From positions 1 to 51,198 of IMG/VR virus record IMGVR_UViG_3300025276_000048: a stretch of 51,198 nucleotides of DNA. The stretch is one strand, 5' to 3'. The position numbers and the translations under genes are program-made. Positions 181 to 30,600 of this stretch are shown here, piece by piece (position 1 is the stretch's first letter; every line of letters begins with the position of its first letter). The notes below the pieces were generated by a model. That model was not told where the DNA came from. It saw only the letters and a program-made list of their open reading frames with translations, and made no database searches. The stretch is from a virus.

Positions 181-225
181 TTTACAAGATCAACACGGCA
201 CCTAAACGATAATATATATGTAACT
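181..225 (+). promoter_or_regulatory. Early promoter repeat, copy 1 of 7
   Basis: This is the first of seven near-identical 36-45 base elements. It shows TTTACAAGATC-AACACG, nine variable bases, CGATAATATA, and a trailing GTAACT. GATAAT sits at -10-like spacing, about 30 bases before the ATG at 243. The fixed spacing of the blocks in all seven copies and the short A-rich leader support a promoter. The Bacteroidota housekeeping consensus (TTTG and TAnnTTTG) is not present. Confidence 0.75.
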
Positions 226-242
226 GAAAAACGAGAAAAAAA

Positions 243-383
243 ATGCAAACTGAATCACTTTATTTATGTATCGAGCACGGTGAGTATTTTACCGTTAGGG
301 CTAACAGTTTAGCGGAGGCAAGAGAGTCCGCTGCGGGCTGGGGAGGCGAAGCAATTAGGAAATTAAACGAAACTGGAATATGA
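243..383 (+). CDS. Small early protein, 46 aa, unknown function
   Basis: I do not recognise this product. The ORF starts MQTESLYLCIEHGEYFTV and runs 46 codons. The ATG lies about 30 bases after the GATAAT of promoter repeat 1, behind an A-rich leader (GAGAAAAAA) with no Shine-Dalgarno sequence. Its stop overlaps the next start as ATGA, a typical translationally coupled junction that supports it being real. It looks like a soluble accessory protein with no Cys cluster or membrane segment. Function is unknown; early expression is inferred from the promoter. Confidence 0.6.
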   Translation: MQTESLYLCIEHGEYFTVRANSLAEARESAAGWGGEAIRKLNETGI

Positions 384-580
384 AGAATTACAATGAAAAA
401 GAGGTGAAGCTGGTGTGTGTAAACACCGGTGATGAAAAAACCTTCGGTGACGAAGTAACGAGCTTCCGCGGAGAAGTGGTGACTATTAAATCTATGCGAC
501 CACCGCACAAGTCAAGTTCAAGCGGTTTTGTAAACAACTTCTATGCTGGAGTGTATGACCTAAAATACGTTGAGGTATGA
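380..580 (+). CDS. Small early protein, 66 aa, unknown function
   Basis: This 66-residue protein is not recognised. It is mixed-charge, beginning MKNYNEKEVKLVCVNTGDEK, and looks like a small all-beta or SH3-like fold: alternating hydrophobic residues in VKLVCVN, EVVTIKSM, GVYDLKYVEV. A short Ser-rich stretch (KSSSSGF) near residue 48 breaks the strands. It is joined to both neighbours by 4-base ATGA overlaps, so the three genes after repeat 1 form one operon. Function is unknown. Confidence 0.65.
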   Translation: MKNYNEKEVKLVCVNTGDEKTFGDEVTSFRGEVVTIKSMRPPHKSSSSGFVNNFYAGVYDLKYVEV

Positions 581-759
581 GTAAGTTCCACTGGAGTGAA
601 GATGTGATAGCGAACTTTCAGTTTGAGAGCCACTATCTACCGCAGAGAACGGTACGTGAGAATATACGGAAATTTGTCGAAGTAGATTGCACACCTGAAG
701 ATGGTGAGACCTACGAACAACTAGCGAGAGACCTATCAAGTGCAGTGTTTACAAAATAA
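577..759 (+). CDS. Small early protein, 60 aa, unknown function
   Basis: This is the third gene of the first early operon, 60 residues, starting MSKFHWSEDVIANFQFESHY. I recognise no domain. It is acidic in the second half (EVDCTPEDGETYEQLARDL) and probably helical. Its start overlaps the previous stop by 4 bases. Its last codons (TTT ACA AAA TAA) are also the first bases of promoter repeat 2, so the 3' end is constrained both as protein and as regulatory DNA. Confidence 0.65.
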   Translation: MSKFHWSEDVIANFQFESHYLPQRTVRENIRKFVEVDCTPEDGETYEQLARDLSSAVFTK

Positions 760-792
760 ACACGAACACCTGACGATAATATAAGCGTAACT
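748..792 (+). promoter_or_regulatory. Early promoter repeat, copy 2 of 7
   Basis: Shows TTTACAAAATA-AACACG, nine bases, CGATAATATA, and GTAACTAA. It overlaps the last four codons of the upstream gene and sits about 25 bases before the ATG at 805. Spacing between the blocks is identical to copy 1. Confidence 0.75.
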
Positions 793-804
793 AAAATAAG
801 TATT

Positions 805-948
805 ATGACTGACGAACAAATAATGGATGCACCTGTGTGGGTAAGTAGATTAATCTTCAATGCCTCACTATTGTACCGCAAGCAAGTGGCAGAGTTAACC
901 GACAGAGAATTGTTGGCAGTAAAAAAGTATTCACTAAACATCAAGTAA
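805..948 (+). CDS. Small early protein, 47 aa, unknown function
   Basis: A 47-residue product beginning MTDEQIMDAPVWVSRLIF. I do not recognise it. The sequence is likely helical (LLYRKQVAELTDRELLAVKKY) and shows no metal or membrane motif. It is the first gene after repeat 2, with a short A-rich leader and no Shine-Dalgarno sequence, and its stop lies one base before the next ATG. Promoter position and tight spacing are the support for calling it. Confidence 0.55.
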   Translation: MTDEQIMDAPVWVSRLIFNASLLYRKQVAELTDRELLAVKKYSLNIK

Positions 949-949
949 G

Positions 950-1180
950 ATGGTATATAGAAAAAGAGTAGATGGCTATGTCTTTCAATACAGCGAAGAC
1001 CACAAAATGTACGAATGTAGAGGACAAGTATGTTATGACTATGAGCATGACGAAGTACCTGAACCCGGCTTATGGCGTGCTGCTTTAAAACTATGTGAAG
1101 AATTACGTGGTGAGTCCAGTATTAATTGGGAAGCTCAGCATTCAGAGAAAGGCTGGGTAGAAGTTGCTAACTATGAATAG
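950..1180 (+). CDS. Small early protein, 76 aa, unknown function
   Basis: This 76-residue protein starts MVYRKRVDGYVFQYSEDHKM. Aromatic residues are frequent, and two Cys are present (ECRGQVCYDYE). The first half reads as short beta strands and the second as a helix (LWRAALKLCEELRGE). No family is recognised. It belongs to the operon behind repeat 2, and its last codons overlap the following zinc-ribbon-like micro-gene in another frame. Confidence 0.65.
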   Translation: MVYRKRVDGYVFQYSEDHKMYECRGQVCYDYEHDEVPEPGLWRAALKLCEELRGESSINWEAQHSEKGWVEVANYE

Positions 1181-1274
1181 CGTGTCCACCTGTTGTGGTG
1201 TCGAAGCGTGGTACGAAACTGACCTATGTCGGGAATGTATGGAGCACACTGATTTTGAAGAATTTGAAGACTAA
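1173..1274 (+). CDS. Zinc-ribbon-like microprotein, 33 aa
   Basis: A 33-residue ORF with Cys pairs at residues 7-8 and 19/22 (STCCGVEAWYETDLCREC) followed by an acidic tail. The CC...CxxC pattern is what a minimal zinc ribbon would show, and short acidic Cys-pair proteins of this kind are common in large phages of Bacteroidota. It overlaps the preceding gene by 8 bases and ends 3 bases before the next ATG, which argues for a real gene in a packed operon. Target and role are unknown. Confidence 0.55.
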   Translation: MNSVSTCCGVEAWYETDLCRECMEHTDFEEFED

Positions 1275-1277
1275 ATT

Positions 1278-1499
1278 ATGATAGACCCTAAAGAATACGA
1301 AGACTTAGTATACTCTATATACGCCCAAATTGAAGGCCAACTATATGATGCAGTGAATTGGGGTACCGATCACCTTGAGTTTAAAGATGACGAAGAAATA
1401 CACGAGGTACATTGTTATGTAATGGCAGGTGTCACTGATTTGCTAAAGTACGGAGAAAATAAACAGAAAGAGTCCACCTGGAATGGGCGGTTATCTTAG
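1278..1499 (+). CDS. Small acidic early protein, 73 aa, unknown function
   Basis: A 73-residue acidic protein starting MIDPKEYEDLVYSIYAQIEG. It is predicted mostly helical from the heptad-like hydrophobics (LVYSIYAQIEGQLYDAV). It shares the general look of the 65-residue protein at 2393, which is also acidic, with Tyr/Met residues and an internal segment of the form (D/E)E(I/F)H or EFH. The two could be distant paralogues, but that is weak. It closes the operon headed by repeat 2; repeat 3 begins a few bases after its stop. Confidence 0.65.
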   Translation: MIDPKEYEDLVYSIYAQIEGQLYDAVNWGTDHLEFKDDEEIHEVHCYVMAGVTDLLKYGENKQKESTWNGRLS

Positions 1500-1502
1500 T
1501 GC

Positions 1503-1546
1503 CTACAAAATGAACACGGCACCTATTCGATAATATATATGTAACT
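1503..1546 (+). promoter_or_regulatory. Early promoter repeat, copy 3 of 7
   Basis: Shows CTACAAAATG-AACACG, nine bases, CGATAATATA, then TATGTAACTAA. It starts just after a stop codon and lies about 25 bases before the ATG at 1559. It matches copy 1 closely even in the variable region (GCACCTATT against GCACCTAAA). Confidence 0.75.
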
Positions 1547-1558
1547 AATTATAACGCT

Positions 1559-1942
1559 ATGAAACTACTTAAAAAAACAAAACAGGGTAACTTACATTAT
1601 ATACTCGATGACGGCCGTATCGGCGCTATATACCCTGCTACCGGCTATGTACGAGTATCACACTCTATGAAAAGTTTTCCTGACACCGAGCGCGGTCAAC
1701 ATTACTTATCACTCCAGCGTCGCCGTAACATAAGTGCTATACGTGACGGTAACACGGGTAGCCTTAAAATGTACCAAATCAACCCCAAACGTAAATACGA
1801 TCGCTATGTAGTATTTGATACCGATAAATGGGGTCGCGAGTTGTACATTAAATTAACCAGCGCCGCACGTGTGTTGTACCCTAATGACACTATAAAGCTC
1901 GTCCTTATGCTTCAAAAATTTAACGCTAAAAACTGTAACTAA
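1559..1942 (+). CDS. Early protein, 127 aa, unknown function
   Basis: A basic 127-residue protein with no recognised family. The first half is beta-rich (NLHYILDDGRIGAIYPATGY, VRVSH) and the centre very basic (LSLQRRRNISAIRDG, INPKRKYDRY), which would fit a nucleic-acid-binding or inhibitory role; that is inference from composition only. The leader lacks a Shine-Dalgarno sequence. Its stop overlaps the next ATG as TAATG, so the two genes behind repeat 3 are co-translated. Confidence 0.65.
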   Translation: MKLLKKTKQGNLHYILDDGRIGAIYPATGYVRVSHSMKSFPDTERGQHYLSLQRRRNISAIRDGNTGSLKMYQINPKRKYDRYVVFDTDKWGRELYIKLTSAARVLYPNDTIKLVLMLQKFNAKNCN

Positions 1943-2340
1943 TGGAAATTCTAGCAACCCCTTTAACTCAGACTACTCGTATAGAGTTCAACGTCAATGA
2001 CGTAATCAAAGTATACTATGGCCGTCTTGATAACTGCCGATGCGGTTGTGCCGGTGAATACTATGATATGGGTACTGACGACGCTAAAATTACTGATGCG
2101 TTGCATATACTTAATAGCTACTCCAAGTCTCCAACCGATACCGTGCTGTCTGACCGTTTCACTTATAAAAACCAACCTAGCGAGTTGTACTTTGAAATAC
2201 AAACCGAAACACGTGACTTTGCTGAGGAAGGCGAAGAAAATAGCGGCGAAGACTTTGATGACTATTACGAAAGTGATGAAGGCGAAGTAGGTTATGCATT
2301 CTATATACAAGATTCACCACACCCTCCCTTTAATAAATAA
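1942..2340 (+). CDS. Cys-motif acidic early protein, 132 aa
   Basis: A 132-residue protein with a tight Cys cluster, NCRCGCAGEYYD, at about residues 31-42, and a strongly acidic C-terminal third (EEGEENSGEDFDDYYESDEG). The CxCxC group could bind a metal. The acidic tail would suit a DNA mimic or a protein-protein contact. I recognise similar YYGR-x-CRCGC segments in other phage early proteins but know no function. Another frame of the same stretch is also open, but lacks operon spacing and a plausible start context. Confidence 0.65.
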   Translation: MEILATPLTQTTRIEFNVNDVIKVYYGRLDNCRCGCAGEYYDMGTDDAKITDALHILNSYSKSPTDTVLSDRFTYKNQPSELYFEIQTETRDFAEEGEENSGEDFDDYYESDEGEVGYAFYIQDSPHPPFNK

Positions 2341-2344
2341 GTAC

Positions 2345-2380
2345 TTACAAAATCAACACGATACCTATTCGATAATATAA
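2345..2380 (+). promoter_or_regulatory. Early promoter repeat, copy 4 of 7
   Basis: Shows CTTACAAAATC-AACACG, nine bases, CGATAATATAA. The trailing GTAACT of other copies is missing here (TAAACAAACG instead), so that downstream part is not essential. The ATG at 2393 follows about 16 bases after GATAAT, the shortest class of leader in the set. Confidence 0.75.
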
Positions 2381-2392
2381 TAAACAAACGAT

Positions 2393-2590
2393 ATGACACA
2401 GAAAGAACTCACTTCGCATGCCTCAGTTATTACTGATTCTATGTTAGACAGCATGTACTCTACTATCTCCGGCTACATGGAAGATGTAATGGAATTTGAC
2501 CCTTACATGGACAACTATAGCGAGTTTCATGATATGCTCTTCCTCGAATGTGTAGAACAAATAGGTAACCTTAAAATTGAAATCAAATGA
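2393..2590 (+). CDS. Small acidic early protein, 65 aa, unknown function
   Basis: A 65-residue acidic, Met- and Tyr-rich protein starting MTQKELTSHASVITDSMLDS. It is probably helical and has no recognised motif. It is the first gene behind repeat 4, and its stop overlaps the next start as ATGA. The composition resembles small acidic phage early proteins that bind host factors, but there is no direct evidence. Confidence 0.65.
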   Translation: MTQKELTSHASVITDSMLDSMYSTISGYMEDVMEFDPYMDNYSEFHDMLFLECVEQIGNLKIEIK

Positions 2591-2901
2591 CACTACAACA
2601 ACTAAATCAAATGAGTAACGATAAAATCGTATTTCTCTGGAATGAATATTGTGAAGAAACCAACTGCTTCACCGATATGCTATACGAAAACGACGACGAA
2701 GCCTTCAGTACATTCGGTTTCACGATCAACGGTACACTAATCAACCATACTAATGAAGTATATAGTTGGGATGATGACTTTGTAACTGCCGACGGCTATG
2801 GTAACCCCTTGTCTTCTGGTGACCCTAAAGTACTAATGGACCTTGAAGACCTGCTCGAGTGGTACTTACAAAAGCAACACGACACCGGAGCGATAATATA
2901 A
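2587..2901 (+). CDS. Early protein, 104 aa, acidic, unknown function
   Basis: A 104-residue acidic protein starting MTLQQLNQMSNDKIVFLWNE, with an ordinary-looking globular sequence (FTINGTLINHTNEVYSWDDD). No family is recognised. The last ten codons coincide with promoter repeat 5: the stop TAA falls within the AT-rich part directly after GATAAT. The gene therefore ends inside the next operon's promoter, and its C-terminus (YLQKQHDTGAII) is dictated partly by promoter sequence. Confidence 0.65.
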   Translation: MTLQQLNQMSNDKIVFLWNEYCEETNCFTDMLYENDDEAFSTFGFTINGTLINHTNEVYSWDDDFVTADGYGNPLSSGDPKVLMDLEDLLEWYLQKQHDTGAII

Positions 2902-2909
2902 TCGTAACT
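2866..2909 (+). promoter_or_regulatory. Early promoter repeat, copy 5 of 7
   Basis: Shows TTACAAAAGC-AACACG, nine bases, CGATAATATAA and CGTAACTAA. It lies almost entirely inside the 3' end of the upstream coding sequence and about 30 bases before the ATG at 2927. The blocks keep exact spacing although the DNA also codes protein, which argues for selection on the motif. Confidence 0.75.
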
Positions 2910-2926
2910 AATAAAAACTTGTAACT

Positions 2927-3169
2927 ATGGAAACTCTTTATGACCGCTTAAAGCCTGAACTATTAGGTAAGCTAATGAAAAACCGCTCAAAATACGAATG
3001 TGCTGTTGAACGCTGTTTAACTATGTTAACTAGTAAAGATCGCTACCACGATTTAACTATTGACGAAGCAAATTACTTATCCACCTTTACTGAAGCCGAG
3101 TGGGTAAACGCTTCTCGTGTTGACTTACGTCACGGCGGCTATATGTTTAACGAACCTAAAACTAAATAA
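2927..3169 (+). CDS. Small early protein, 80 aa, unknown function
   Basis: An 80-residue basic protein beginning METLYDRLKPELLGKLMKNR, with helical spacing throughout and two Cys in YECAVERCL. No domain is recognised. It follows repeat 5 with a leader of about 28 bases, and its stop is one base before the next ATG. Confidence 0.65.
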   Translation: METLYDRLKPELLGKLMKNRSKYECAVERCLTMLTSKDRYHDLTIDEANYLSTFTEAEWVNASRVDLRHGGYMFNEPKTK

Positions 3170-3170
3170 C

Positions 3171-3554
3171 ATGAGTGACTACACACCAAAAGACCCGGAA
3201 AGCATTGAAACCTACGATGCTATACTCGCTGAGTACAATACTATATTCAATACGGAATACCAATTCTTTTTTGACGAGCACCCTCGTGATGTTGATTTTC
3301 TTTTAAATGAAGAGCACACGGTTGACGGCCACGCTGTATGGGTAATGCGTGCTAATGAAGACGGAATATACTTAAGCGATAACGTATACTACTACCAGCC
3401 TGACGGTCATGATTTACTACGTGAAGTGAGATATGGAGCAGACGATAGTAAAGTATATTGTGAGATTGCGGAAAGTGAAGTTCAAGAAGCTTTGTTTGAT
3501 AGGTTATGCACTAATTACAATAACTACCTACAAGAACTTGAAGATGAAAAATAA
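3171..3554 (+). CDS. Early acidic protein, 127 aa, unknown function
   Basis: I place the start at the ATG directly after the preceding stop (MSDYTPKDPESIETYDAIL); a longer version would overlap the upstream gene by 50 bases and add an unlikely N-terminus. The product is acidic and rich in Asp, Glu and Tyr, with a beta-like central part (GIYLSDNVYYYQPDGHDLL) and a helical end. No family is recognised. It is the second gene behind repeat 5. A 3' hairpin and promoter repeat 6 follow. Confidence 0.65.
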   Translation: MSDYTPKDPESIETYDAILAEYNTIFNTEYQFFFDEHPRDVDFLLNEEHTVDGHAVWVMRANEDGIYLSDNVYYYQPDGHDLLREVRYGADDSKVYCEIAESEVQEALFDRLCTNYNNYLQELEDEK

Positions 3555-3576
3555 AAAACTCGATTAGTTACGAGAT

Positions 3577-3630
3577 GTAAGAGCGCTGGATATTAAATTT
3601 TTAGCGGAGTGGCGTTGAAAGCGTTCTTAC
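3577..3630 (+). other. Long hairpin before promoter 6
   Basis: GTAAGAGCGCT (3577-3587) can pair with AGCGTTCTTAC (3620-3630) over 11 bases with one G-U pair, leaving a 32-base loop. The 3' arm runs into the first bases of promoter repeat 6. No U-run follows, so it is not a classic terminator. It could be an mRNA 3'-end stabiliser, a regulator site or a small structured RNA. Confidence 0.4.
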
Positions 3631-3666
3631 AAAACTAACACGAACACCCAACGATAATATATAAAA
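3626..3666 (+). promoter_or_regulatory. Early promoter repeat, copy 6 of 7
   Basis: Shows CTTACAAAACT-AACACG, nine bases, CGATAATATATAAAAC. The ATG at 3676 follows about 17 bases after GATAAT. Its 5' end overlaps the 3' arm of a long hairpin, a feature not seen at the other copies. Confidence 0.75.
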
Positions 3667-3675
3667 CAAAAGAAA

Positions 3676-4383
3676 ATGAGCAAGAAAGTAATATGGTTTG
3701 ACGGTAGCAACGTATTTGTAGCTCGTAAGGGTAAAACAACTAATGTTAAGATATCTGATGGTTCACCTGTTCTGCAAACCTATACCTTTAGCTACGAGCA
3801 GTGGAAATTAGCCACTACAAGCAAAGGTTTCGGTATCAAAGCTTTCTTTGCACTTGACCAATCAAATTGTCTGGACTGCCCATTTTCTTTAGGTAACGGT
3901 AACGGCGGTTGCTATACGCACAAATTCCAACAATACGTCGGCTTTCTTTCATTGCTGCGAAGTATCAAACCTGAAGAACTCAGCCCCTTCAACGATTTGA
4001 AATTCAAGCAGTTACTAAAGTTAGCCTCTAAGTCTTATGTAAGATTTGGCACGTATGGCGAACCGTCGCTTATCGCCCCTAATGTTGTTGCTGCAATTGT
4101 TGCAGTAGCTAAAACCTGGACCGGCTACACCCACCAGTGGAACAAACCATTTGCTTCTGAGCACGGTAAATACTTTATGGCTTCCGTGCATAATCAAGCC
4201 GAAGCTGACGAAGCTCGTGACAAATCATACCGATCTTTTATTGCGAGTCATGACAATTCTGAAAAAGCAGTATCTTGTCCCGCATCTAAAGAATCCGGCT
4301 TTAAATCTAATTGTGCAACGTGTGGCTTATGCAGCGGTGTGCTTGGCAAGGGTAAAAAAGATATTAAAATACTACAACACTAA
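3676..4383 (+). CDS. Cys-cluster protein resembling the phage Gp88 family, 235 aa
   Basis: This 235-residue protein has two Cys groups. C65-x2-C68-x10-C79 lies in CLDCPF...GGCYTH, and C201, C213, C216 and C219 lie in CPASKES...CATCGLC. Between them are RFGTYGEP (about 123-130) and WTGYTHQW (about 148-155). This arrangement of a front Cys motif, R-x-G-x-x-GEP, GYTHQW and a C-terminal CxxCxxC resembles the mycobacteriophage gene-88 family, thought to be related to radical-SAM barrels. It does not show the standard CX3CX2C motif, so catalysis is uncertain. It is the first gene behind repeat 6, coupled by TAATG to the DnaA-like gene. Confidence 0.55.
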   Translation: MSKKVIWFDGSNVFVARKGKTTNVKISDGSPVLQTYTFSYEQWKLATTSKGFGIKAFFALDQSNCLDCPFSLGNGNGGCYTHKFQQYVGFLSLLRSIKPEELSPFNDLKFKQLLKLASKSYVRFGTYGEPSLIAPNVVAAIVAVAKTWTGYTHQWNKPFASEHGKYFMASVHNQAEADEARDKSYRSFIASHDNSEKAVSCPASKESGFKSNCATCGLCSGVLGKGKKDIKILQH

Positions 4384-4922
4384 TGATAAACGCAACTTTT
4401 GATCAACAGGTATTAGCTAATAATTATTGGAAAAGTACGGTAGAAAGCCATCACGTAGGCTCTAATCGTGAACGCCGAAATGTGCTATACCGATTTGCTT
4501 TCTTTGTTTCATGTCGTGAGACCTCTAGCTTATCACTAAGCACTATTGGTCGTATAATTAAAAAAGACCATGCTACCGTTCTACATGCAATACGATCTCA
4601 TGAAAGCAACTATAGATTTGATGCTCAATATCGTGAAATATATACTGAAATGCACACTTGTTTATCTGACATTATTGGTAGCAATACCGAAAAAGTATAC
4701 GATGCAGTTAAGCAGCGGGCTTTACAAATAAACCCTGATTTTTATGAAAACCATATTATTAAAACTTATAAGCAACGTCTTGATAATCAAGAGCATGAGT
4801 ATAAAGAAGCTATTGAAACATTAAAAGACACTTTGCTGAAAACGCAGAATCACAATAAAATATTACAAAAACGAATGAACTGGTTAAATGACGAATGTTT
4901 AAGATTAAAAAACTTATTATGA
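4383..4922 (+). CDS. DnaA domain IV-like DNA-binding protein, 179 aa
   Basis: Residues about 28-72 match the helix-turn-helix of the DnaA C-terminal domain: an N-terminal R/Y/F-rich helix, then LSTIGRIIKKDHATVLHAI, close to the DnaA signature IG..F..RDHSTVLHA. There is no AAA+ ATPase domain, so it cannot be a full initiator. Residues about 125-179 form a coiled coil (KQRLDNQEHEYKEAIETL), suggesting a dimer. It could bind DnaA-box-like sites in phage or host DNA, either to start phage replication or to block host initiation. It overlaps both neighbours by 1-4 bases. Confidence 0.75.
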   Translation: MINATFDQQVLANNYWKSTVESHHVGSNRERRNVLYRFAFFVSCRETSSLSLSTIGRIIKKDHATVLHAIRSHESNYRFDAQYREIYTEMHTCLSDIIGSNTEKVYDAVKQRALQINPDFYENHIIKTYKQRLDNQEHEYKEAIETLKDTLLKTQNHNKILQKRMNWLNDECLRLKNLL

Positions 4923-5062
4923 GTAAAATGAAACAATTTATACGTATCGCTAATGCAAGACTGCGTAAAGTATACAAGAACAAAGAACAGCGCCGTGCGT
5001 GGGCTGCTAAGATGTACGTAAAATGGATAGAAAAAAAGAATAAAGAAGGTGGTAAGGCTTAG
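4919..5062 (+). CDS. Small basic protein, 47 aa
   Basis: A 47-residue Lys/Arg-rich protein starting MSKMKQFIRIANARLRKVYK, all helical in appearance, ending in KKNKEGGKA. It overlaps the DnaA-like stop as ATGA, which supports translation. It might bind nucleic acid or assist its neighbour. No family is recognised. A structured segment ending in a T-run follows within 130 bases. Confidence 0.5.
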   Translation: MSKMKQFIRIANARLRKVYKNKEQRRAWAAKMYVKWIEKKNKEGGKA

Positions 5063-5114
5063 TAATAAACTTTACTTGGGGAGGCTTTAACCATCTTCTT
5101 TTAATCATAGCAAA

Positions 5115-5190
5115 GAGAGGGGCGGTTCACTATAAATTAATCCCTTGAAGGGAAACACTTTTGGTTAAATACAGGCTGACCCCTTTTTTT
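5115..5190 (+). terminator. Possible intrinsic terminator or structured RNA
   Basis: AGGGG (5118-5122) pairs with CCCCT (5180-5184), directly followed by a run of seven T. Nested inside are CCCT-TGA-AGGG and GGTTA...TGACC hairpins. The closing stem is long-range, so this is more elaborate than a simple terminator and could be a small structured RNA of about 75 bases. It lies in a 150-base stretch with no other gene (5063-5211), after the third gene of the repeat-6 operon. Confidence 0.4.
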
Positions 5191-5211
5191 AACCTTTAAA
5201 ACCAAAGATAT

Positions 5212-5343
5212 ATGATAGTATTAATAATAGTAAGCACCATGTGTATATACATGATTAGAAGAGAGAGACTAGCTTACCTTGAGGTAAAGCGTAAATCAAA
5301 AAAATATAGTTCTTACAAAACCAACACGGACGACGAACGATAA
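5212..5343 (+). CDS. Possible small membrane protein, 43 aa
   Basis: The first 15 residues (MIVLIIVSTMCIYMI) form a membrane segment, followed by a basic tail (RRERLAYLEVKRKSKKY). The last codons read through promoter repeat 7, and the stop TAA is the TAA inside its CGATAATAT block, just as the gene at 2587 ends within repeat 5. That parallel is the main support; otherwise the ORF is short and lies behind a possible terminator without an obvious promoter. Confidence 0.4.
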   Translation: MIVLIIVSTMCIYMIRRERLAYLEVKRKSKKYSSYKTNTDDER

Positions 5344-5355
5344 TATATATGTAAC
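5312..5355 (+). promoter_or_regulatory. Early/middle promoter repeat, copy 7 of 7
   Basis: Shows CTTACAAAACC-AACACG, nine bases, CGATAATATA and TATGTAAC. It is the last copy in the window. The ATG at 5374 is about 28 bases past GATAAT. From here genes run almost without gaps to the terminator at 14546, so this copy may drive the whole replication operon including the sigma factor gene, which would be a positive loop if that factor reads it. Confidence 0.75.
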
Positions 5356-5373
5356 AAATAAAACCACAACACT

Positions 5374-5604
5374 ATGACAACCAATGTATTAACAACCATT
5401 AATGTCGACAGCTCTATGATCGACAAAGCCTATTACGATCACGGTAACAACGAACTTCTTCTGCAGTTCAAAAACAACAAATCAAAGTACGTCTATAGCG
5501 ACATACCTGGTTTTTTATTCAACGGTCTTTTTGCCGCCGAAAGCAAGGGCAAATTTATTCATAAAAACATAATTCGTGCGGGATTCAAATACACCAAAGT
5601 TTAA
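5374..5604 (+). CDS. KTSC-domain protein, 76 aa
   Basis: Residues about 10-72 fit the KTSC domain: a short strand and turn (KAYYDHGNNELLLQF), then Y-x-Y-x-x-IP (YVYSDIPGFLF), then A-x-S-x-G-x-(F/Y)-x(4)-IR (AESKGKFIHKNIIR). The domain is named for its similarity to the C-terminus of some lysyl-tRNA synthetases and is common in phages, with no defined activity. It fills the whole protein. It opens the operon behind repeat 7 with an A-rich leader. Confidence 0.75.
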   Translation: MTTNVLTTINVDSSMIDKAYYDHGNNELLLQFKNNKSKYVYSDIPGFLFNGLFAAESKGKFIHKNIIRAGFKYTKV

Positions 5605-6423: not shown

Positions 6424-7044
6424 ATGTCCAAATACGAAAGAAATATGGAATACCTAAATAGAAGAAAGATTATATACCGGAGAAATCCTATTACGGATAG
6501 ACCTTCACATGTATATGACTGGGGGTTCTTCTATGAAGAAGGTACACGGGAGTACTTTGCACTGTTTGCTTCAAGAGCAAAGATAAACACGTACAGGTCG
6601 TTAAAGTGGCATTTGCATGTATTATGGCATCTTAACCATTCAATGACACAAGATACATTCAGAGAAACAGCCTTTTACTTAGCTGATCGTGAGAACGGAT
6701 TTGTAACGTTTACACTTTCTGAACAAACTCTTGAAACCTTTATACATGATGTATCTTTAAAAGATTTAGGTGAAAGACCACCAAATAAGACAAGAAAGAT
6801 TATATTTAAGGATTCCTGTGTACTTAATAGAATCGACAAACTAAAAATTGTCGGACATATTGTAGGTAAACAAAAGCTTTCTGAAACCGAAATATATGAT
6901 GCAATGCTACTGCTTCATGACGATAACGAAAAGTTAACTATCGACAAAATTGCTGAGTCACTAGGGGTTTCAGCGCGGACCATACATAGAAATATGTCTG
7001 CTGAGTTAAAAAAAGAAAAAGAATTATTAAACGCTAACTTATGA
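6424..7044 (+). CDS. Helix-turn-helix regulatory protein, 206 aa
   Basis: The C-terminal 45 residues hold a clear helix-turn-helix (LTIDKIAESLGVSARTIHRN) followed by a basic helix (SAELKKEKE). The N-terminal 130 residues are aromatic and basic with no recognised domain (YDWGFFYEEGTREYFALFAS, WHLHVLWHLNHSM). It lies immediately before the sigma factor gene and overlaps a 48-codon ORF by ATGA. It is probably a phage transcription regulator or a replication protein with a DNA-binding tail. The short upstream spacer contains TATAAT. Confidence 0.6.
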   Translation: MSKYERNMEYLNRRKIIYRRNPITDRPSHVYDWGFFYEEGTREYFALFASRAKINTYRSLKWHLHVLWHLNHSMTQDTFRETAFYLADRENGFVTFTLSEQTLETFIHDVSLKDLGERPPNKTRKIIFKDSCVLNRIDKLKIVGHIVGKQKLSETEIYDAMLLLHDDNEKLTIDKIAESLGVSARTIHRNMSAELKKEKELLNANL

Positions 7045-7187
7045 AAGACATAATTAAATTTGATAATTGGATGAAAAGTATTAAAAATATTTACTATTTT
7101 AATAATGAGCGAATGGTCGCCGCTTATGAGATAATTAAAGAAAATGAAAAAGTACAACATTCAAAATTACGTCTTATACAAAAATGA
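7041..7187 (+). CDS. Possible small protein, 48 aa, before the sigma gene
   Basis: A 48-residue ORF (MKDIIKFDNWMKSIKNIYYF) coupled by ATGA to the helix-turn-helix gene. It overlaps the first 44 bases of the sigma factor ORF in another frame. If the sigma factor uses a later start (Met-31), the overlap disappears and this ORF becomes more credible. No motif is seen. Confidence 0.4.
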   Translation: MKDIIKFDNWMKSIKNIYYFNNERMVAAYEIIKENEKVQHSKLRLIQK

Positions 7188-7896
7188 TGTAGAGAAAGTA
7201 ATATCAAGAAACGAGGGTTTAACCTGGAAGGAAATGACAAGAGACCAATTGGTAGCACAATTTCTCCCTTTAGTTGAAAACTTAGCAAGAAAGTTTAGTA
7301 CATCAGATCAAGCTTCAGGTGTATTAAGTATAAATGATTTGATTCAAGAGGGCAACTATGGCTTAGTTGCAGCAGTCGACAAAATAAGTTGGGATGTAAT
7401 TTTTGACTCTGAAGATCCCGAAAAAACAATCAAGTCATTCCTATCCAAAAGAATCAAAGGTGCTATACGACGCGCCATAGACATAAATAGAGGCGATGTA
7501 CGCATACCTGAACACAAGCTTAATGAAATTAGGAAGTCACCAGATAACGAACATATGGTTGCGATGTTCTTTAATAGCGTATTTTCAAGCATCGACGCGT
7601 TCAGTGACGACGAAAACCCACATTTCCAAGTTCCTGATACATCGGAACCTTATAATATTGCGATCATAAATTCTTATTTACTAGGTTTAATGCGCCAGTA
7701 CTTAACACCATTGCAATACGATGTTGTAAGACTTTCATACGGTTTAGACCAAGATAAGATGCCAGCTACAAAAATTGCCGTATATTGCAGCATTAACGTT
7801 GCTACGGCTAACGTAAGAATATCACAAATAAAGAAGGAAGCGATTGATACTTTAATTGCAAACACCGATCCTTCTCAAGTGTTAGACTTTTTATAA
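7144..7896 (+). CDS. RNA polymerase sigma factor, sigma-70 family, 250 aa
   Basis: Residues about 35-115 match sigma region 2: QFLPLVENLARKF, then INDLIQEGNYGLVAAVDK (compare DLIQEGNIGLMKAV in RpoD), then FLSKRIKGAIRRAID. Residues about 119-130 (VRIPEHKLNEIR) resemble the start of region 3. Residues about 186-237 form region 4, with LTPLQYDVVRLSYGL and a helix-turn-helix (ATKIAVYCSINVATANVRIS). Region 1.1 is absent. It should direct host RNA polymerase to phage promoters, and the seven repeats at the left end are the natural candidates. The start is uncertain: Met-31 also works. It lies between a regulator and the recombination genes. Confidence 0.85.
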   Translation: MKKYNIQNYVLYKNDVEKVISRNEGLTWKEMTRDQLVAQFLPLVENLARKFSTSDQASGVLSINDLIQEGNYGLVAAVDKISWDVIFDSEDPEKTIKSFLSKRIKGAIRRAIDINRGDVRIPEHKLNEIRKSPDNEHMVAMFFNSVFSSIDAFSDDENPHFQVPDTSEPYNIAIINSYLLGLMRQYLTPLQYDVVRLSYGLDQDKMPATKIAVYCSINVATANVRISQIKKEAIDTLIANTDPSQVLDFL

Positions 7897-17355: not shown

Positions 17356-20300
17356 TTATTTAGGTTTACGTTCAGGGTATTTTTTATCATATTCTTCAAG
17401 CTTTTTAGCCAGTTCTTTTTCTTTTTTGCTTTTACGCGTTTTTTTAGATTTTGCTTTACTCTCCTCTTTACGCTGCGTTTTAGCCTCTATTTTAATAAGA
17501 TCGTTCTCTTCATTCTTGGCACCCACATCCCATGTTTTCCAGCCAGCTGCTAATGCTATACGTTGCCATTCTGTGTTTCTAGAATCTAATGCTTCTGAAT
17601 AACCGTTAATAAGATCTACTACTCTATCCATGGGAATGTTGGTAGTACCTGAGACTAAACTACCAAGAATAGAATATGCGGGGCTTAAATTTACACGGCC
17701 ATCTTGCATAATCTCAAAACCTCTTGCTTTAAGTATATCCCTGTTAAATGCTTCTCCAGCTAAAGCAGAGTTTATTTTTCTAAGTTTTGATCCTATAGGT
17801 GGAGAAATACTAAGTACTTGTAATACAACCGCTCCACGGTCAGCCATAAATCCTTTATCTTTTTGTATAAAATATTCTGTAATAGTATTTTTAATGGTTG
17901 CTAATACGGCTCCTCTTACGCCACTACCTTTAAGAATAGAATCTGTCATACTATTAATAATACGAAGAATTCTTTTATCGTTCTTGCGCTCAAGCTTTTC
18001 TAATTCTTTTGCGGTCATTTCAGACTCTTCTTCGTCGTCAAATCCAGGTATAACGGCAAACAATGCACTCTGTAATGCGGAGAATATAAAGTTCTGCACC
18101 GCACCGTAATAAATAATTTTAGATATATGTGTTTTAGGGTCTCCTCGTCTGTTTGCAAGATCCTGCATTGATTTTTTCATTAAGCGGGTGTATTGCATTG
18201 GCGTATTCTGAAATGCTAATACTAATCTACCTAGCACGCTACGTTGCTCTTGAGAAACTAAATACGGATCAGATGATTGTTGTGCTTCATCTGCAGTTTT
18301 GCTAAAGTCTTCAAACGCTTGCTTTTCTGCTGCTTTTTGCTCCATACCTTGTTTAAGATATGTGTTAACTCTATTTCTGTACATTGATGATCCACCCATT
18401 GCAATAGCAAAGCTATCCGCAATTTGAGTAGGGGTAAAACCAATTTTTAATAAATAAGCAATTACAGCACCTGCTTTATTTTTAGCGCCTTCTGCTTGAT
18501 TAGCAATTTCTGCCTGGTTAACATCCGTTTGCAATCCTGAACGGCGTTGTTTTAACTTGTCGGAGTTAAATATCATTGCAAAATCCGACCAATATTGTGG
18601 CTGGTTTGCAAATGCTGCCGCTGCTTTAAGCGGGTTGTTATCAGACCAATTAATAAAGTTAGTAGCAGATAGAGTTTGCAATATTGCGGAGCGAACGTTT
18701 AAGAACATTATAGCGCCGGTAGAGTTGTTTACCCAATTTAACCAAGCATTAACTTGTCTGCTCTTAGATCCAGCAGTACGGTTTGTACCGTTAGTCATTG
18801 AATATAAAGAATCCTCAATAGCGCTTCTGTGGTTTGTTCCATAAACAGCTTCAATCTTATTCAAATTTTCAGGACTAAATATAACTTCAGAATTTTCTAT
18901 AAATTCTTGCAAGTATTTTTTTCTACCTACTTTTTCAGTCATTCCGTTAAGATCTGAAACTAAAGTACGGGAAAGCCAATGCTCACCAGGCTCGGCCCAT
19001 GTGTCTTGTCTAGATATGAGTTGCATCGCGTTGCCTAATTCAATAAGTTGTGGCATCGCGTTAATCGCATTAATTAAAAACCTAATGTCAGCTTTATCCA
19101 TACCAGGTATCTCTATACCTTGCTGAGTCCACATGTACACCCTTAATGCTTGATCATAAGTATAATCGCTATTATCGATTTTCTTACCTAGCATTTTAAA
19201 ATACTGCTTATTAGTTTTTGCTAAAGCATTGTATTCACGTCGCACTTGCTGTTTAATTGCTTCAATCATTGCAATACCTCTAATGTACGGCGTAATTAAA
19301 TTGTCTTCAATAAACTTTTGGTCAGCTTCACCTTGTTTTCCTTTGCCAGCAAATGTATATGAAGTTAGCCCTCTAAAATCTTCAGCAGACGCAGGAACAA
19401 ACAAACGATACTTGCCTTTCTTTTCGCCTTGCATACGGGCTTGTGCTACTGAATATAATTTATCGGCCGCAACTCCTTTATTGCGCTCAATCATTTTATT
19501 TAAGCCCTCGCTTAAGCCTTTGCTAAACTTAATGCCTGATGCTTCTAAACCTGTGTTTACTTTATTTACAAATGCTTCAGGCAAAGCCTCACCGTAAGAA
19601 AGGTTATCAGTATTTATTTCATAAAAACGACCGGCATAGTCTTCTTTATATTGCTTAGCGCTTTCTTGTACGCTATCCCAAGTTTTAGTTACTATAAAGT
19701 CTGCTAACGATCTTTCAGCCCGCGCACGGTTTCTTTCTACTGCAATATCTTTGCTAGTGTTTACAAATATCATTTGTATTTCAAACCCTGCATCTTCTAA
19801 AGCTTTCATCTTTTTAGTTGTAGCTTTATATGATGCGCCAGTGCCATCAACTACCATGCTTTCTCGTCCAGCTGTATTATTGGCTAAATCTTCTTCCGCA
19901 GCTTTTCTAGCTTTCCAGCCTAGCTTAGCTCTTAATGATCTTTCTTCTTTGTTATAAGTTTTTTCATCACTCGCTAGTCCAGCATCTTTTATATATTTTT
20001 CTAAATAAGGGTCTTGGTTAACTAATCTATAGCCTTTGTCAATTAAACCTAATCCTTCTAGTGTGCTAGATTTACCAGAGCCTGGTCCGCCTACCATAAA
20101 TACAGCGGTTGGTTTAGATATAGAGAACTTTACGGATGGCTGCAACCATTTTTCAAAAGATTGTACAGCTTTAAAGTTTATATCTATTTTTTCTGTGTAT
20201 GCTTCTGTTTCTTTTAGACTTTCAAAATAATCTGTTAAAGTGATTAAATTTCCTTTTTCATTAACTGCTGCAAAATAAGTATTAGCGCGCGCGGCTTCTC

Positions 20301-23300
20301 CGTATAGTCTTAATCTTTCTATATTGGCAGGATTAGTGGGCGATAGTATTTTATCAATAACAGGATTTGCCGTTAATTGATCGGTAGACATTAATATATT
20401 TTTTTCATATGCCTTGTCTATGGCATCAATAGTTTCCTTGCCTAACTCATTATTAACAAGGGCAAGTTTAGGGTTGCCAGCTATTTCTAATAGCTCAAAC
20501 ATAAATTGTACGTTAGGAAACATATGTTCTATGTATTGCCCTGAATTATAATCTATGTTGCCATCAATAATTGTTAATTGCCCTAGTGGTCCAAATCCAT
20601 CGTTACGCGTACCATTATCACGTTGTAAAAATCTAGCAAAGTCCATTAAAGTCATCTCGCCTTTTTGAACTGCTAAAATAAATTCACCGGCAATTCTACT
20701 AGACAATATTTTGTTGGCTAAGTTTTGGGCTTGAATCTTCTCAACCATGCCGGAAGACTGCAAAGTATTATTAATATCACCGTTTTTTTGTAACTCGAAC
20801 AAGTCTTTTGCACTTACTTCTTTTGTAGTGTATTTAGTTACATTAGAAAGAATTTCGGCATTTATTTTGTTAGCGGCAACAATAGCTTTTGACTTAATAG
20901 CGCCTTTAAACGCTCCAATACCAAATGCTCTTAATTCATTAATGCTAATTCTGCTTTGTACAATACCTACACTTTCAAGGTATTTTTTTAAAGTTTTAAG
21001 CTCTCCTTTACTTTTTAAACGGCGAACGGTCATAAAACCTTCTAGCTCTTCTTGAACTTCTTTAGAAGCTTGCGGAATTAGGTTACTAAATCTCGCATCT
21101 ATTTCTAGCTTATAATCGGCAACCGTACTATTAAGTATTTCCCCAATATGCCAAAAAACCTTTTCAAAGTTAACGTCATTAAGGTCTACGCCTAGCTCTT
21201 TTGCTTCTAACTTAAATTGTTCAATTATACCATTATTAAAATTTTCATCGTCTAAAGTATAATCATCTGGGAAAACTTTATCAGATCGTAATACTTTATT
21301 TAAAACAATGTCTAATGCCGCCAGGTTTTGAGCGGATTGCAATTCGGTTTGCGTGAAACCCTTAGAGTACTTAATATTTCCTCTTTCAAAATCAAGTTTA
21401 AGCTTCGCTATGTAATTGTCAGCAATTTCAGTACCTATTCTTTCTTGATTAGCTTCAAAAGCTTGTCGGATTTGGCTATCAGGATTTTGCATTTCCTGAT
21501 TAATAATTTCTATAGCTAATTCTTCTCCAATAGCCTTAGCGAGAGATTCTTTTTTACCGCGTAAAGGATTACCTTTTTCATCAAGAATAAAAGACAAAAA
21601 GGTTTTGTCATCTATTTTTGCTGAAGCATTTGGCAATCTACGTACTAATTCAGCTCCAGATGTTCTACCTGCTTTATCTGTATCTACAGATTCTCTATCA
21701 ATTTTTTTACCTTTCCAATCACTAGTAAATACACCATCTACTTGTTTTTGTATTGCAGCTGGAAAAGCAGACATTAAATAAGTAGTGGTCATATTCTCAA
21801 GGATAGCTTTTTTGTTATCCGTTAAAAATCTTCTAAGCACCCCGTCTTTTTTACCACCCATTGCTTTTTTCAAGTCAATGTCTACTTGCTTACCTAAAGC
21901 GAGACGCAATTCATTTACTAATGGAGTAACGGTAGTGTTTTTAGAAACAGGAGCATCAATACGACTTTTAAGAGTACCTACTATTCTAGGTATTTTACCA
22001 AGTATTTCTTGTATTAATTCTGGTTCTGCAATTCTACTATTTAAAAGAGGTCTGTATTCAGGCTTTTCAGCTTCCGTGCGCTCTTCTATTTGTTCTATAG
22101 TAGTAACATCAGCAGCCTCACCTTTAAGGTCCTCTATGTCGCTCTGATTAAAGTCTTCAACAATATCGTTTTTACCTTCGCCAGAAGCTTTAAGCATATC
22201 TTTAATACGGAAACTAATACGCCCATTTATATAACCGTATAATGTACCTCGACCATCAAACTTATTTATGTCTCCGTTAGAATACAGTCTATAAACAATG
22301 TCACTATTAGCCTCATCCATGTCAAACTGTAAGCCTTTAATAGAAAGCTTTGCTAACTGTGCTTGAATCATTCCTGGAAGAACTCTCGCAATAAGCGGTG
22401 AGTTAGGATCAAAGAAGTCCATATTTGAACTTACTTTATCCAAAACTGCTTTTGCTGCTTCTGCAGATTGTGTACGGCTTTGTTTTGTTTCTTTGTTTTC
22501 AGGTTCTTTTCCTGCAGCTCTTATAAAAGGTTTTGAAGATTTTACTTTGCCACCAAAATGAGCGGCTTTATTATAATCTAAAACAAATTGATAAACAGCG
22601 GCATCGTCGGATAACTTAAATTTTCCCGGTAATATTTTACTAAGAAGTAATTTAACTTGTTCCAATGTATTAGCGTTAGGCATATAGCCGTCAGCTAATA
22701 AATCAGATAAAGCGGTTAACGCTTCTTCTTGATAATATTTATTCTTTTTAGACTCGCCGGTGCTTTCATCGGTCTCAACGTAGTTTTTGTCAAGGCGATC
22801 TTTAACTCTAGCAAATAAGTCAGGCTGCTTCTTTTCTAAATAATTTAAAAGGTCTTGCCCTGCTTCGTTACCTGTTTTTGACTGGATGCCTAATTCTGCT
22901 TCGTCATGCAACACCTCATGTGCAAATACACCAATACGACCATTCTTAATAGCGTTTGGCATGTGTACTAGATTGTACCCTCCAAAATTAAGTGCTTCTG
23001 TTCTGCCGCTAGCTAGCATTTTTTTAAGTTCACTAATGTTTTCGTAACCTAATTCTTTTGCTCTAGCAATTAAATTCTCTGTTGCACCTTCACCGTCGAA
23101 AGATTCAGGGGGGTTAATTTTTTTATCTTTATTATTTTGAATATAACGCAGTACATTATCTCGGCCTTTTTCTATAAGCTCTCTGTATTTATTTTCAAAA
23201 TAATCTTTTCTAACTTTCTGTTTAACAGATTCGTTTGTTACTTCTAACCCCTCCTTTTCAAGTTCAGCTTTAGCTTTTTCGTTTAAAGACTGTATTGTGC

Positions 23301-27642: not shown

Positions 27643-30600
27643 TTATTCACTGCTTATAAAGACCTCAGAGTTAACCGCAAAGAGCTCTTTCTTGTTACCA
27701 CTTGTTGTTGTCATTTTAGCTTCAGCATAATATCCAATTATACCCGATGTATTCACCTCACTGTCTTTCGCAAACAACATAAAGTTACCAGCAACTGGTA
27801 AAGGCGCTGGAGACGCTGTTAAAAGTCTAAACGAGTTAGAATCTCTGTCTACAGATTGTACGGTGCCTATTACTCTTAAGGCTGGTTGCAAAGAATAAAT
27901 TATGTCACCCGCTTGCAATGAATCATTTACTTCACCGTTTATTGTAATAATGTTGCTTGCCGAATTGTAAGTTAAAACATTACCTAACCCTTGAACAGAA
28001 AACTCCTCTGTATCTATATTAGCCAGCGTAGTAGCCTTACCTTTAATAAAGTTAAAGAATAAGCTTTCCTTCTTCTTCCAGCTAGTTACTTCACCGTCTT
28101 GCATGTTTGTTGTAACGTCAGCGGTCCACCCTTCATCTCCTTCGTACGAAAGAGTCTTAAAGTTTTTAATGCTTGTTGGGGCATCATTGAATATAGGTGT
28201 GACAGTTGAATTGAATTGAGTTCCGTAGAAGTTTGACCTTGTTTGATTTGAGTGCTCATACAATTCTCCGTTTTTAAAGGTGTAATACTCATTATTCAAT
28301 GATACTCCAGCTTCAGGCACATATGATAGTGTTGTGTTCCAGCCGTCAACACTTTCTTTAAACGAAACGCCTTCTGTTTTGTTTGGTTCTGCCCCTACGG
28401 TCGGTACATTTATACACACATTGTATGACGATGCGTCAACGTCATATGAGCCAATGAGGTCGCCTGTGGACTTGCGTAGCTTATCCTGAAAGTAAAAGGA
28501 CATATCTTTATCCCCTATATCTGTTAAGCCATCACGTGACAACCTAAGGATAGTTCCTCTAGCCTTATCCGCAAAGTATGTTCTAAAACCAAACGACGCA
28601 AACGATTCTGGATTCTTAGATATACCGTACTCACCTGAATAAGGAACGGTTTGACCTAAAACACTATTGTTGCCTGTTAAGTTACTGTCGCCATCAGCAT
28701 TGAATAAAGCGTCTTTATTTGCTAATATCCTAAAACACTTGTCTTCACATAACGCAATTAAATCAGTGTCTCTAGCATAAAGTTTTTGTATAGTTCCGTA
28801 TATAGGGTTTAAGTCTTTTGTAATCTTAAGACCTGCAATAAACTGGTTAAGCTCATTAACACCGCTGGTACTATTAAATATACCGCTGTATATGAGCCCG
28901 GCTCCCCTTCTTTCTTCTTCGTATGTATTTTCTAAAGTACTAGAAACTTTAGTACCTTTGCCTATAACTTTTGCGTTAAAGTCATCTTCTATGCGATCCG
29001 ATTCTACGCCGTTACCGAATGAATAACAATTAAAGTAATTTAATAATTGAGCGTTATTAAGATCTGCTATAGGTAAAGCATCGGTAGCTTCATAATATAA
29101 ATCTAAATCTACACCTTCCTTAGGTTCTGTTTCAAATATAGCGGGATTAGGCGACGGTAAGACAACAGTCTCGCTGTCAAATTCAATAGGTACCCCTCTT
29201 TTTCTTTCTAATAACCGTGCGGCTAAGGGTATTTTATTAGTGCCATCACCAAAGTTAGGCTGTAGTGGATTTGCTATTGTTACATTTACATAATAAATGT
29301 ATTGGCTATCACCCGCTGGCTGTCCACCAATAGGCACCACTGGGTTCGTTGGTGCTCTTAGTACAAGTCCTTTACTTACACTAGATATGTCTAACGCTTT
29401 ACCCCAGTCGCCATTTGCATCTTGCAGTTGTATAGAGTTGCTAGTTGTAATAGTATTAAACAAGCTTAAATCAGCTATTGGAGTAAAGGGATCATAATAT
29501 CTTACATATCCGAAGCCAAAAGTAACCTCACCTGAAGCGGCTGTAACCATTTGTGGCACTGAAGCCACTATAGCGTTTGTATTACCAGCATATTCATTCC
29601 ATGCCCATCCTTCTGGTGAAGGAGAAGGCAAATTAGACGGGTCGGCTATTGACGGATCGTCAAGCGTTGTAGGCACTATAGATATTTCACTTTTTACAAT
29701 ATAATAACTTGGATCACTAGTAAAATTGTATATAATAGCATTATCAAGAGCGGTATTCCTATTTACTTTAGCAAAAAACTTTCCCTGATATTCTGGCTTA
29801 GCTACTTGTTCATCTTTATAAACATATACAGTAAATCCACTACCTATGCTAGCCCCTATGTCCTGGCCCAAGGGGGTTTTTAAATTTACAGTGTAGCTAC
29901 TTGCGGTGTCAGCCCTTAATCCACCTGTTTCAATTTCGTAATAATTACTAAATGGCTGATCCGCAGGGGTTGATATCTGCAAACGTATAAAATTACCTCC
30001 TACAAAAGCGCTTGGAAAGTCAGGGTTATCTGTAACTGTAGGTCCTGTAAAATTAACCGCAAACGCCCCAACTGTGGCAACACCATTTGTTATTTGGCCA
30101 AATGTTAATTGTGTTTTTTGATTAGCAACAGGGCGTGGCACCTCGTTACTAATATCTATAATCTTATATTTAGCAGCGTCTTCTACCGGCAAATTAGTGT
30201 TATGTTCTTTTTTAAGTATAATAAAATCGTCAATTGCAACTTTATTTCTCTCAGCTGAAGGGATACTTAGCCACATGTTGCCGTCTTCTGCATCATAAAA
30301 TCTGTCCAGTACAAAATTGTAATATTCGCTAGATATGTCTTTTACGTAATATTTAAAATGCGTAGGATTCCACGCTGGCTTAGTGTGCGCTGAGGTTACG
30401 GATAGCCTATTTCTTTTTGTAGATAAGCTTTTAGGTAATATTATAGTTGCGGTATCATTTGTAAAAACAGGTGTTTCTCTACCGTATTCATCTAAATAAA
30501 CTATACCAACCTGGTAAGTTCTTTGGCTTTTTAACGAAGAAACCGCTGAGTTTATTGTAGAGTTAGATACCGAATTAGCTACAATACTTATCTGGCTGTT

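Follow-up and report, generated by a model that had tools for sequence, protein, structure and literature searches.

The 51,198-base virus record IMGVR_UViG_3300025276_000048, analysed here in its entirety and called the window, opens with seven copies of a three-block element that probably constitute a phage-specific regulon read by the sigma-70 family factor encoded at 7144, possibly together with a conserved helix-turn-helix (HTH) protein encoded beside it at 6424. An initial annotation of this DNA had proposed a dedicated sigma/promoter pair. That proposal is made probable, short of proof, by co-occurrence of motif and sigma in both directions, by the absence of both from sigma-minus relatives, by a sigma-28-like region 2 that fits a CGATAA -10 element and by the fact that genomes of the order to which the host probably belongs have neither FliA nor an exact motif copy.

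Seven copies of a three-block element

All seven elements of the initial annotation (181, 748, 1503, 2345, 2866, 3626 and 5312) are present at those positions. The core AACACG-N9-CGATAATATA occurs as seven exact copies, all on the + strand within 181-5347 of the window, with AACACG starting at 192, 759, 1513, 2355, 2876, 3637 and 5323. The reported 9-base spacing between AACACG and CGATAATATA is exact in 7/7 copies, as is a 2-nucleotide gap between TTACAARA and AACACG. The first T of TTACAARA is replaced by C in the copy at 1503, and all seven copies contain CGATAA. The elements and the two genes proposed to act on them are as follows, with +1 positions taken from the 141-copy alignment described below.

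181..216, + strand: promoter copy 1 (TTTTACAAGATC-AACACG-N9-CGATAATATA), predicted +1 at ~220, heads the open reading frame (ORF) at 243
748..783, + strand: promoter copy 2, predicted +1 at ~787, heads the ORF at 805
1503..1537, + strand: promoter copy 3, predicted +1 at ~1541, heads the ORF at 1559-1942
2345..2379, + strand: promoter copy 4, predicted +1 at ~2383, heads the ORF at 2393-2590
2866..2900, + strand: promoter copy 5, predicted +1 at ~2904, heads the ORF at 2927-3169
3626..3661, + strand: promoter copy 6, predicted +1 at ~3665, heads the ORF at 3676-4383
5312..5347, + strand: promoter copy 7, predicted +1 at ~5351, heads the ORF at 5374-5604 (KTSC domain), with the HTH and sigma genes reached by read-through
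6424..7044, + strand: 206-residue protein with a C-terminal HTH, conserved sigma partner gene and candidate co-reader
7144..7896, + strand: sigma-70 family factor of 250 residues with regions 2, 3.0 and 4, proposed reader of the array

The element is confined to the first 5.4 kb and occurs nowhere else in the window. At up to three mismatches it has eight window matches, against 0.79 +/- 0.87 in dinucleotide shuffles (largest 4), and a weight matrix trained on the seven copies scores them at 43-48 bits, with the next-best window site at 5.7. As annotated, the copies stand in front of early-region genes, the head ORFs starting at 243, 805, 1559, 2393, 2927, 3676 and 5374. Each lies shortly 5' of an ATG, but the leader measured from block end to ATG is 13-26 nucleotides long rather than the 16-30 first given.

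An exact-pattern scan of IMG/VR located the element in 32 DNA stretches, and 141 copies with at most one mismatch yield the consensus TTACAAAA-nn-AAYACGA-n7-YGATAATATAA, followed by TG(T/A)A and an A-rich leader. In 141/141 copies a purine occupies position +28, counted from the A that opens AACACG and 7 nucleotides past the T of GATAAT, the place at which transcription would be expected to begin. Between ATAATA and the following start codon the median interval is 30 nucleotides. With such a start, GATAAT would lie at -12 to -7, AAYACGA at about -28 to -22 and TTACAARA at about -38 to -31. The seven elements are members of a real, widespread family of predicted phage promoters. No second recurring promoter-like motif was found on either strand of the window, its middle and late regions included, and of eight relatives, where only coding repeats or the same motif recurred, and a generic sigma-70 promoter scan returned about as many matches as in shuffles. 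The literature searched held no description of the motif or of the sigma/motif pair.

The sigma factor combines a sigma-28-like region 2 with region 4

The initial assignment of the gene at 7144 to the sigma-70 family is borne out by PHROG 351 (E 3e-19) and by a match to Pfam Sigma70_r2 (PF04542) at 25.6 bits, above its cut-off of 24. Region 2 matches the structure 1sig over 74 residues with a root-mean-square deviation of 1.4 and a Z-score of 11.8. Region 4 aligns to SigA region 4 as a second, weaker domain, with confident model helices at residues 189-240; the Pfam scan detected no separate region 4 domain in this protein.

Compared alone with solved structures, region 2 finds FliA as its top match (E 6.5e-5), with SigA next (0.002). 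The FliA alignment spans the RIKGAI stretch, and the next SigA alignments end before region 2.3. An invariant KR occupies the position of the tryptophan pair of RpoD, in sigma-70 numbering derived from our own alignment. The score of the whole protein does not place it in the FliA family, at 28.3 bits against TIGR02479, whose cut-off is 189.6. The FliA -10 consensus is GCCGATAA (PMC2859248). With a sigma-28-like region 2, the match of that -10 element to CGATAATATA would be expected.

A conserved HTH gene accompanies the sigma gene

The initial annotation overlooked the conserved HTH gene at 6424 beside the sigma gene; the HTH product could also take part in reading the three-block element. 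The gene is found in 97 of the 100 sigma-positive loci with at least 6 kb of upstream sequence, usually at most 100 nucleotides from sigma and often overlapping the sigma start codon, and is absent from five sigma-minus relatives. Its AlphaFold model has a predicted local distance difference test score of 90.5 and shows a C-terminal HTH. The protein also contains a strongly conserved stretch around GTxECYxLFxSKAKITTYKSLKWH.

Comparison of the 6424 protein with curated families gave no match above cut-off. In the structure search the matches were confined to generic ones for the C-terminal HTH (Z at most 5.5), and the N-terminal part has no clear match. The 6424 protein is a natural candidate for reading the AAYACGA box. 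Loci L192 and L193, alike in the DNA-reading regions of sigma and unlike in their upstream blocks, are in line with such a second reader.

Motif and sigma factor occur together across viral sequences

Relatives of the 7144 sigma are encoded in 432 viral-contig stretches, and the comparison set comprised ~150 related viral sequences. From sigma to motif, 80 IMG/VR loci were chosen by sigma protein homology alone, with the motif left out of the selection. Motif copies are present in 74 of the 80 loci, 495 of them on the strand that encodes sigma and 12 on the other, against 54 on both strands in shuffles. Five of the six copy-less loci have about 2.2 kb or less of upstream sequence, and the sixth, L135, contains an altered version of the element, TTACAAACAAAA...TGGATAATATA, four times and with the overall spacing preserved. 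The same version is used by L216-L218, near relatives of the L135 sigma. De novo searches locus by locus revealed more lineage versions of fixed geometry, with TTTGCAAAC, CACAAAT or TCGAAA as the first block and nearly no reverse-strand matches. Across 80 non-redundant loci, 643 copies precede sigma and 13 follow it, in 618 kb.

From motif to sigma, 23 of the 32 records found by the motif encode the sigma (57-100% identity), and most of the others are fragments ending near the array. Co-occurrence in related phages, put forward with the initial annotation as a check, holds in both directions (74/80 and 23/32). None of five complete terminase relatives without sigma (MW202828, elemoA, phi38:1, phi46:3 and Panino) carries the motif above the shuffled level. 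On sequence grounds, the sigma/motif pair is an evolving module whose geometry is kept while its letters drift, and in some lineages both the sigma and the motif have diverged.

Two side observations concern arrays in other records. In MW202828.1 (L046, about 40-50 kb), the nearest terminase relative, the early region contains an array of nine copies around the palindrome GTGTCGTTAACGACAC. The 129,537-base record IMGVR_UViG_3300047157_000162 (L125 and L131) encodes two different sigma copies, each with its own array, and is possibly two phages joined in assembly.

The array does not fit the promoter consensus of the probable hosts

Terminase relatives of the window phage infect Flavobacteriales, which makes this the probable host order. 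A host call through genome contigs was set aside as uninformative, as the eight contigs from metagenome-assembled genomes fell in bins of unrelated phyla and are probably binned phage DNA. Flavobacterium psychrophilum possesses only sigma-A, one sigma-54 and seven extracytoplasmic function (ECF) factors, and its -7 box is TAnnTTTG (PMC9723704). In agreement with the initial annotation, the array does not fit the Bacteroidota housekeeping consensus, as neither TTTG nor TAnnTTTG is matched in it, and flavobacterial promoters of the TTTG (-33)/TAnnTTTG (-7) type occur at chance level across the window.

FliA above cut-off is absent from all 196 Flavobacteriales genomes (Escherichia coli, Bacillus subtilis and Thermotoga maritima controls were positive), and an exact motif copy is found in 0/196. 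In a whole-phylum sample FliA exceeds the cut-off in 31/148; because FliA occurs elsewhere in the phylum, the argument from its absence rests on the inferred host order. Recognition of the array by a host sigma, the alternative offered in the initial annotation, is disfavoured by a motif that is unlike TTTG/TAnnTTTG and has no exact copy in the 196 genomes.

Genome layout

Rightward genes occupy 1 to ~14.5 kb, and leftward genes extend from there on. The rightward set is composed of small unknown genes, a DnaA-C-like HTH gene, the 206-residue HTH protein and sigma, along with Erf, an exonuclease, a primase-helicase, ThyA and MazG; the leftward set contains the structural genes, terminase, portal, GroEL and GroES. 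A 1449-residue structural protein (27643-31992, - strand) bears the crAss-like muzzle domains PF25731 and PF25729, which tie the phage group distantly to crAss-like phages. A giant protein of 2835 residues (17356-25863, - strand) has a P-loop kinase/zeta-toxin-like stretch at residues 1916-2067, and no further domain was recognised in it.

Proposed mechanism

As regards binding, start sites, timing, the assignment of proteins to blocks and what the HTH protein does, the following scheme is inferred from sequence. The 7144 sigma would join host core RNA polymerase and direct it to the array. There the (Y)GATAATATA block would serve as the -10 element, melted and recognised by the sigma-28-like region 2, with region 4 positioned above TTACAARA (about -38 to -31). 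The predicted start is the purine 7 nucleotides past the T of GATAAT, and the A-rich leaders would then measure ~10-23 nucleotides. Ordinary sigma promoters have nothing that corresponds to the AAYACGA box (about -28 to -22), which may be read by the 6424 HTH protein or by sigma itself. Once some sigma is present, the phage holoenzyme would fire the array, perhaps aided by the HTH partner.

The suggestion of self-amplification is partly supported, by some relatives and not directly by the window. In the window no copy stands directly before sigma, which is reachable solely from the copy at 5312, by read-through across four small genes and the HTH gene. In 8/80 relatives (L080, L082, L088, L093, L098, L118, L125 and L151), a copy lies 5-14 nucleotides (ATAATA to ATG) 5' of the sigma ATG, and the predicted +1 falls on or beside that ATG. 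This arrangement suggests a leaderless sigma message in the eight loci and makes a self-feeding loop plausible there.

Weighing the sigma factor against other readers

Several observations count against the 7144 sigma as the reader of the array. Whole-protein profile scores favour RpoD models over FliA models. The fragment L020 (10,469 bases) has five copies and 6 kb of downstream sequence, yet encodes neither sigma nor the HTH partner; it also carries a DnaB-like helicase and a ligase-like gene. Mantel comparisons of motif distance with sigma, HTH, Erf, exonuclease and primase distances are weak throughout and do not single out sigma, and partial Mantel values of 0.12-0.16 for sigma are equalled by the exonuclease control, also at 0.16. 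Single-column covariation is as strong for control proteins (exonuclease A109 at the C of AAYACGA). The DNA-reading regions of sigma are nearly the same in L192 and L193, whose upstream blocks differ. Common descent alone could hold motif and sigma together. The sigma gene lies 3' of the array, and no host-type promoter was recognised for the first sigma; because the gene follows the array, that first supply would have to come by another promoter or by virion carriage. Covariation between motif columns and sigma residues, weighted or unweighted, was not used, as near-invariant columns give artefactual Z-scores.

The HTH protein could be the main specificity factor, with host holoenzyme and HTH activator reading the array and the phage sigma serving other promoters. 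The HTH gene is linked to the motif as tightly as sigma is (97/100, directly before sigma, absent in sigma-minus relatives), sigma factors do not normally contact the stretch where the middle AAYACGA box lies, and the upstream blocks vary in L192 and L193 while the DNA-reading residues of sigma stay. Its recognition helix, however, is very conserved despite the drifting upstream blocks, HTH distance accounts for motif distance no better than sigma distance, the -10 block differs from the TAnnTTTG of the host, and no other recurring element remains for sigma to read; we consider this arrangement unlikely. A classic cascade, in which host sigma-A or an ECF factor reads the early array and the phage sigma switches on middle and late genes elsewhere, would agree with an array that heads the first small genes with sigma afterwards, the order expected of early genes followed by a switch factor. 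It is quite improbable given a motif that does not fit TTTG/TAnnTTTG, has no exact copy in any of the 196 genomes of the probable host order and does not occur in related phages of the group that lack sigma, and given that a second recurring promoter element for sigma was not found.

Two other readings fare worse. The element could be an operator, antiterminator or translation signal, bound by a regulator or acting in an RNA leader and overlapping other promoters, as its fixed spacing, its position just 5' of start codons and the palindromic array that MW202828 has instead in its early region might indicate. The motif is not palindromic, though, and it ends in an AT-rich, -10-like block with a purine at a constant place and an A-rich leader, beyond which conservation drops, leaving such a signal very unlikely. 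crAss-like phages carry virion polymerases, and the distant crAss-like muzzle domains and the 2835-residue giant protein bring to mind a phage RNA polymerase, whether virion-carried (crAss- or N4-like) or single-subunit; a strict multi-block element and an AATACGA core that recalls the T7 promoter point the same way. Against it, reading frames of at least 150 residues contain no DxDGD or NADFDGD, in a record that may be incomplete, the giant protein shows only its P-loop kinase-like stretch, PF00940 had no match, in a search whose positive control was also silent, and the motif tracks sigma. We regard a phage polymerase as the reader as highly improbable.

Significance and relation to known systems

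If the 7144 sigma reads this regulon, the transcription programme of a widespread group of environmental phages would be defined; in their probable hosts, the Flavobacteriales, few types of sigma factor are known. Natural sigma/motif variants are numerous and fixed in spacing, which makes promoter specificity testable by natural pair swaps, and the pair would offer an orthogonal promoter system for Bacteroidota. It also poses a concrete question: by what means genes of the early region could rely on a sigma whose own gene follows them. A bolder reading, which we put forward only tentatively and consider rather doubtful, is a new promoter class needing two phage proteins, a sigma-28-like sigma and an HTH partner that reads a separate spacer box, used by a large undescribed phage group, probably of Bacteroidota, in hosts without sigma-28.

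Sigma-28/FliA promoters (TAAAGTTT-N11-GCCGATAA) have the CGATAA -10 core in common with the phage array, and region 2.3-2.4 of the phage sigma has the FliA RIKGAI stretch instead of the RpoD tryptophan pair. Unlike FliA, the phage sigma retains an RpoD-like region 3.0 (RIPEH); its element has the extra AAYACGA spacer box and only a weak -35 match, and the genes behind the array are phage genes, not flagellar ones. Flavobacterial sigma-A promoters have the same A-rich leaders without an obvious Shine-Dalgarno sequence, but their TTTG/TAnnTTTG boxes are absent here.

SPO1 gp28 and T4 gp55 are phage sigma factors with phage-specific promoters. The phages phiEco32 and 7-11 likewise encode a sigma with a promoter set distinct from that of the host, and the 7-11 promoters were also identified by sequence comparison alone (PMC4331800). 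These four regulons serve middle and late genes, whereas the array described here precedes sigma in what is presumed to be the early region, and its long three-block element, linked HTH partner and different sigma subfamily set it apart. The array would work in the manner of known phage sigma regulons, and the predicted features that are new relative to them are the sigma-28-like -10 element, the added spacer box and the conserved HTH partner. SigO-RsoA and other two-protein sigma systems, together with MotA-type activation, offer a lead in that a sigma and a second small DNA-binding protein are made side by side. The phage case differs in a sigma that contains region 2 as well as region 4 and in a partner whose N-terminal part has no clear match among solved structures.

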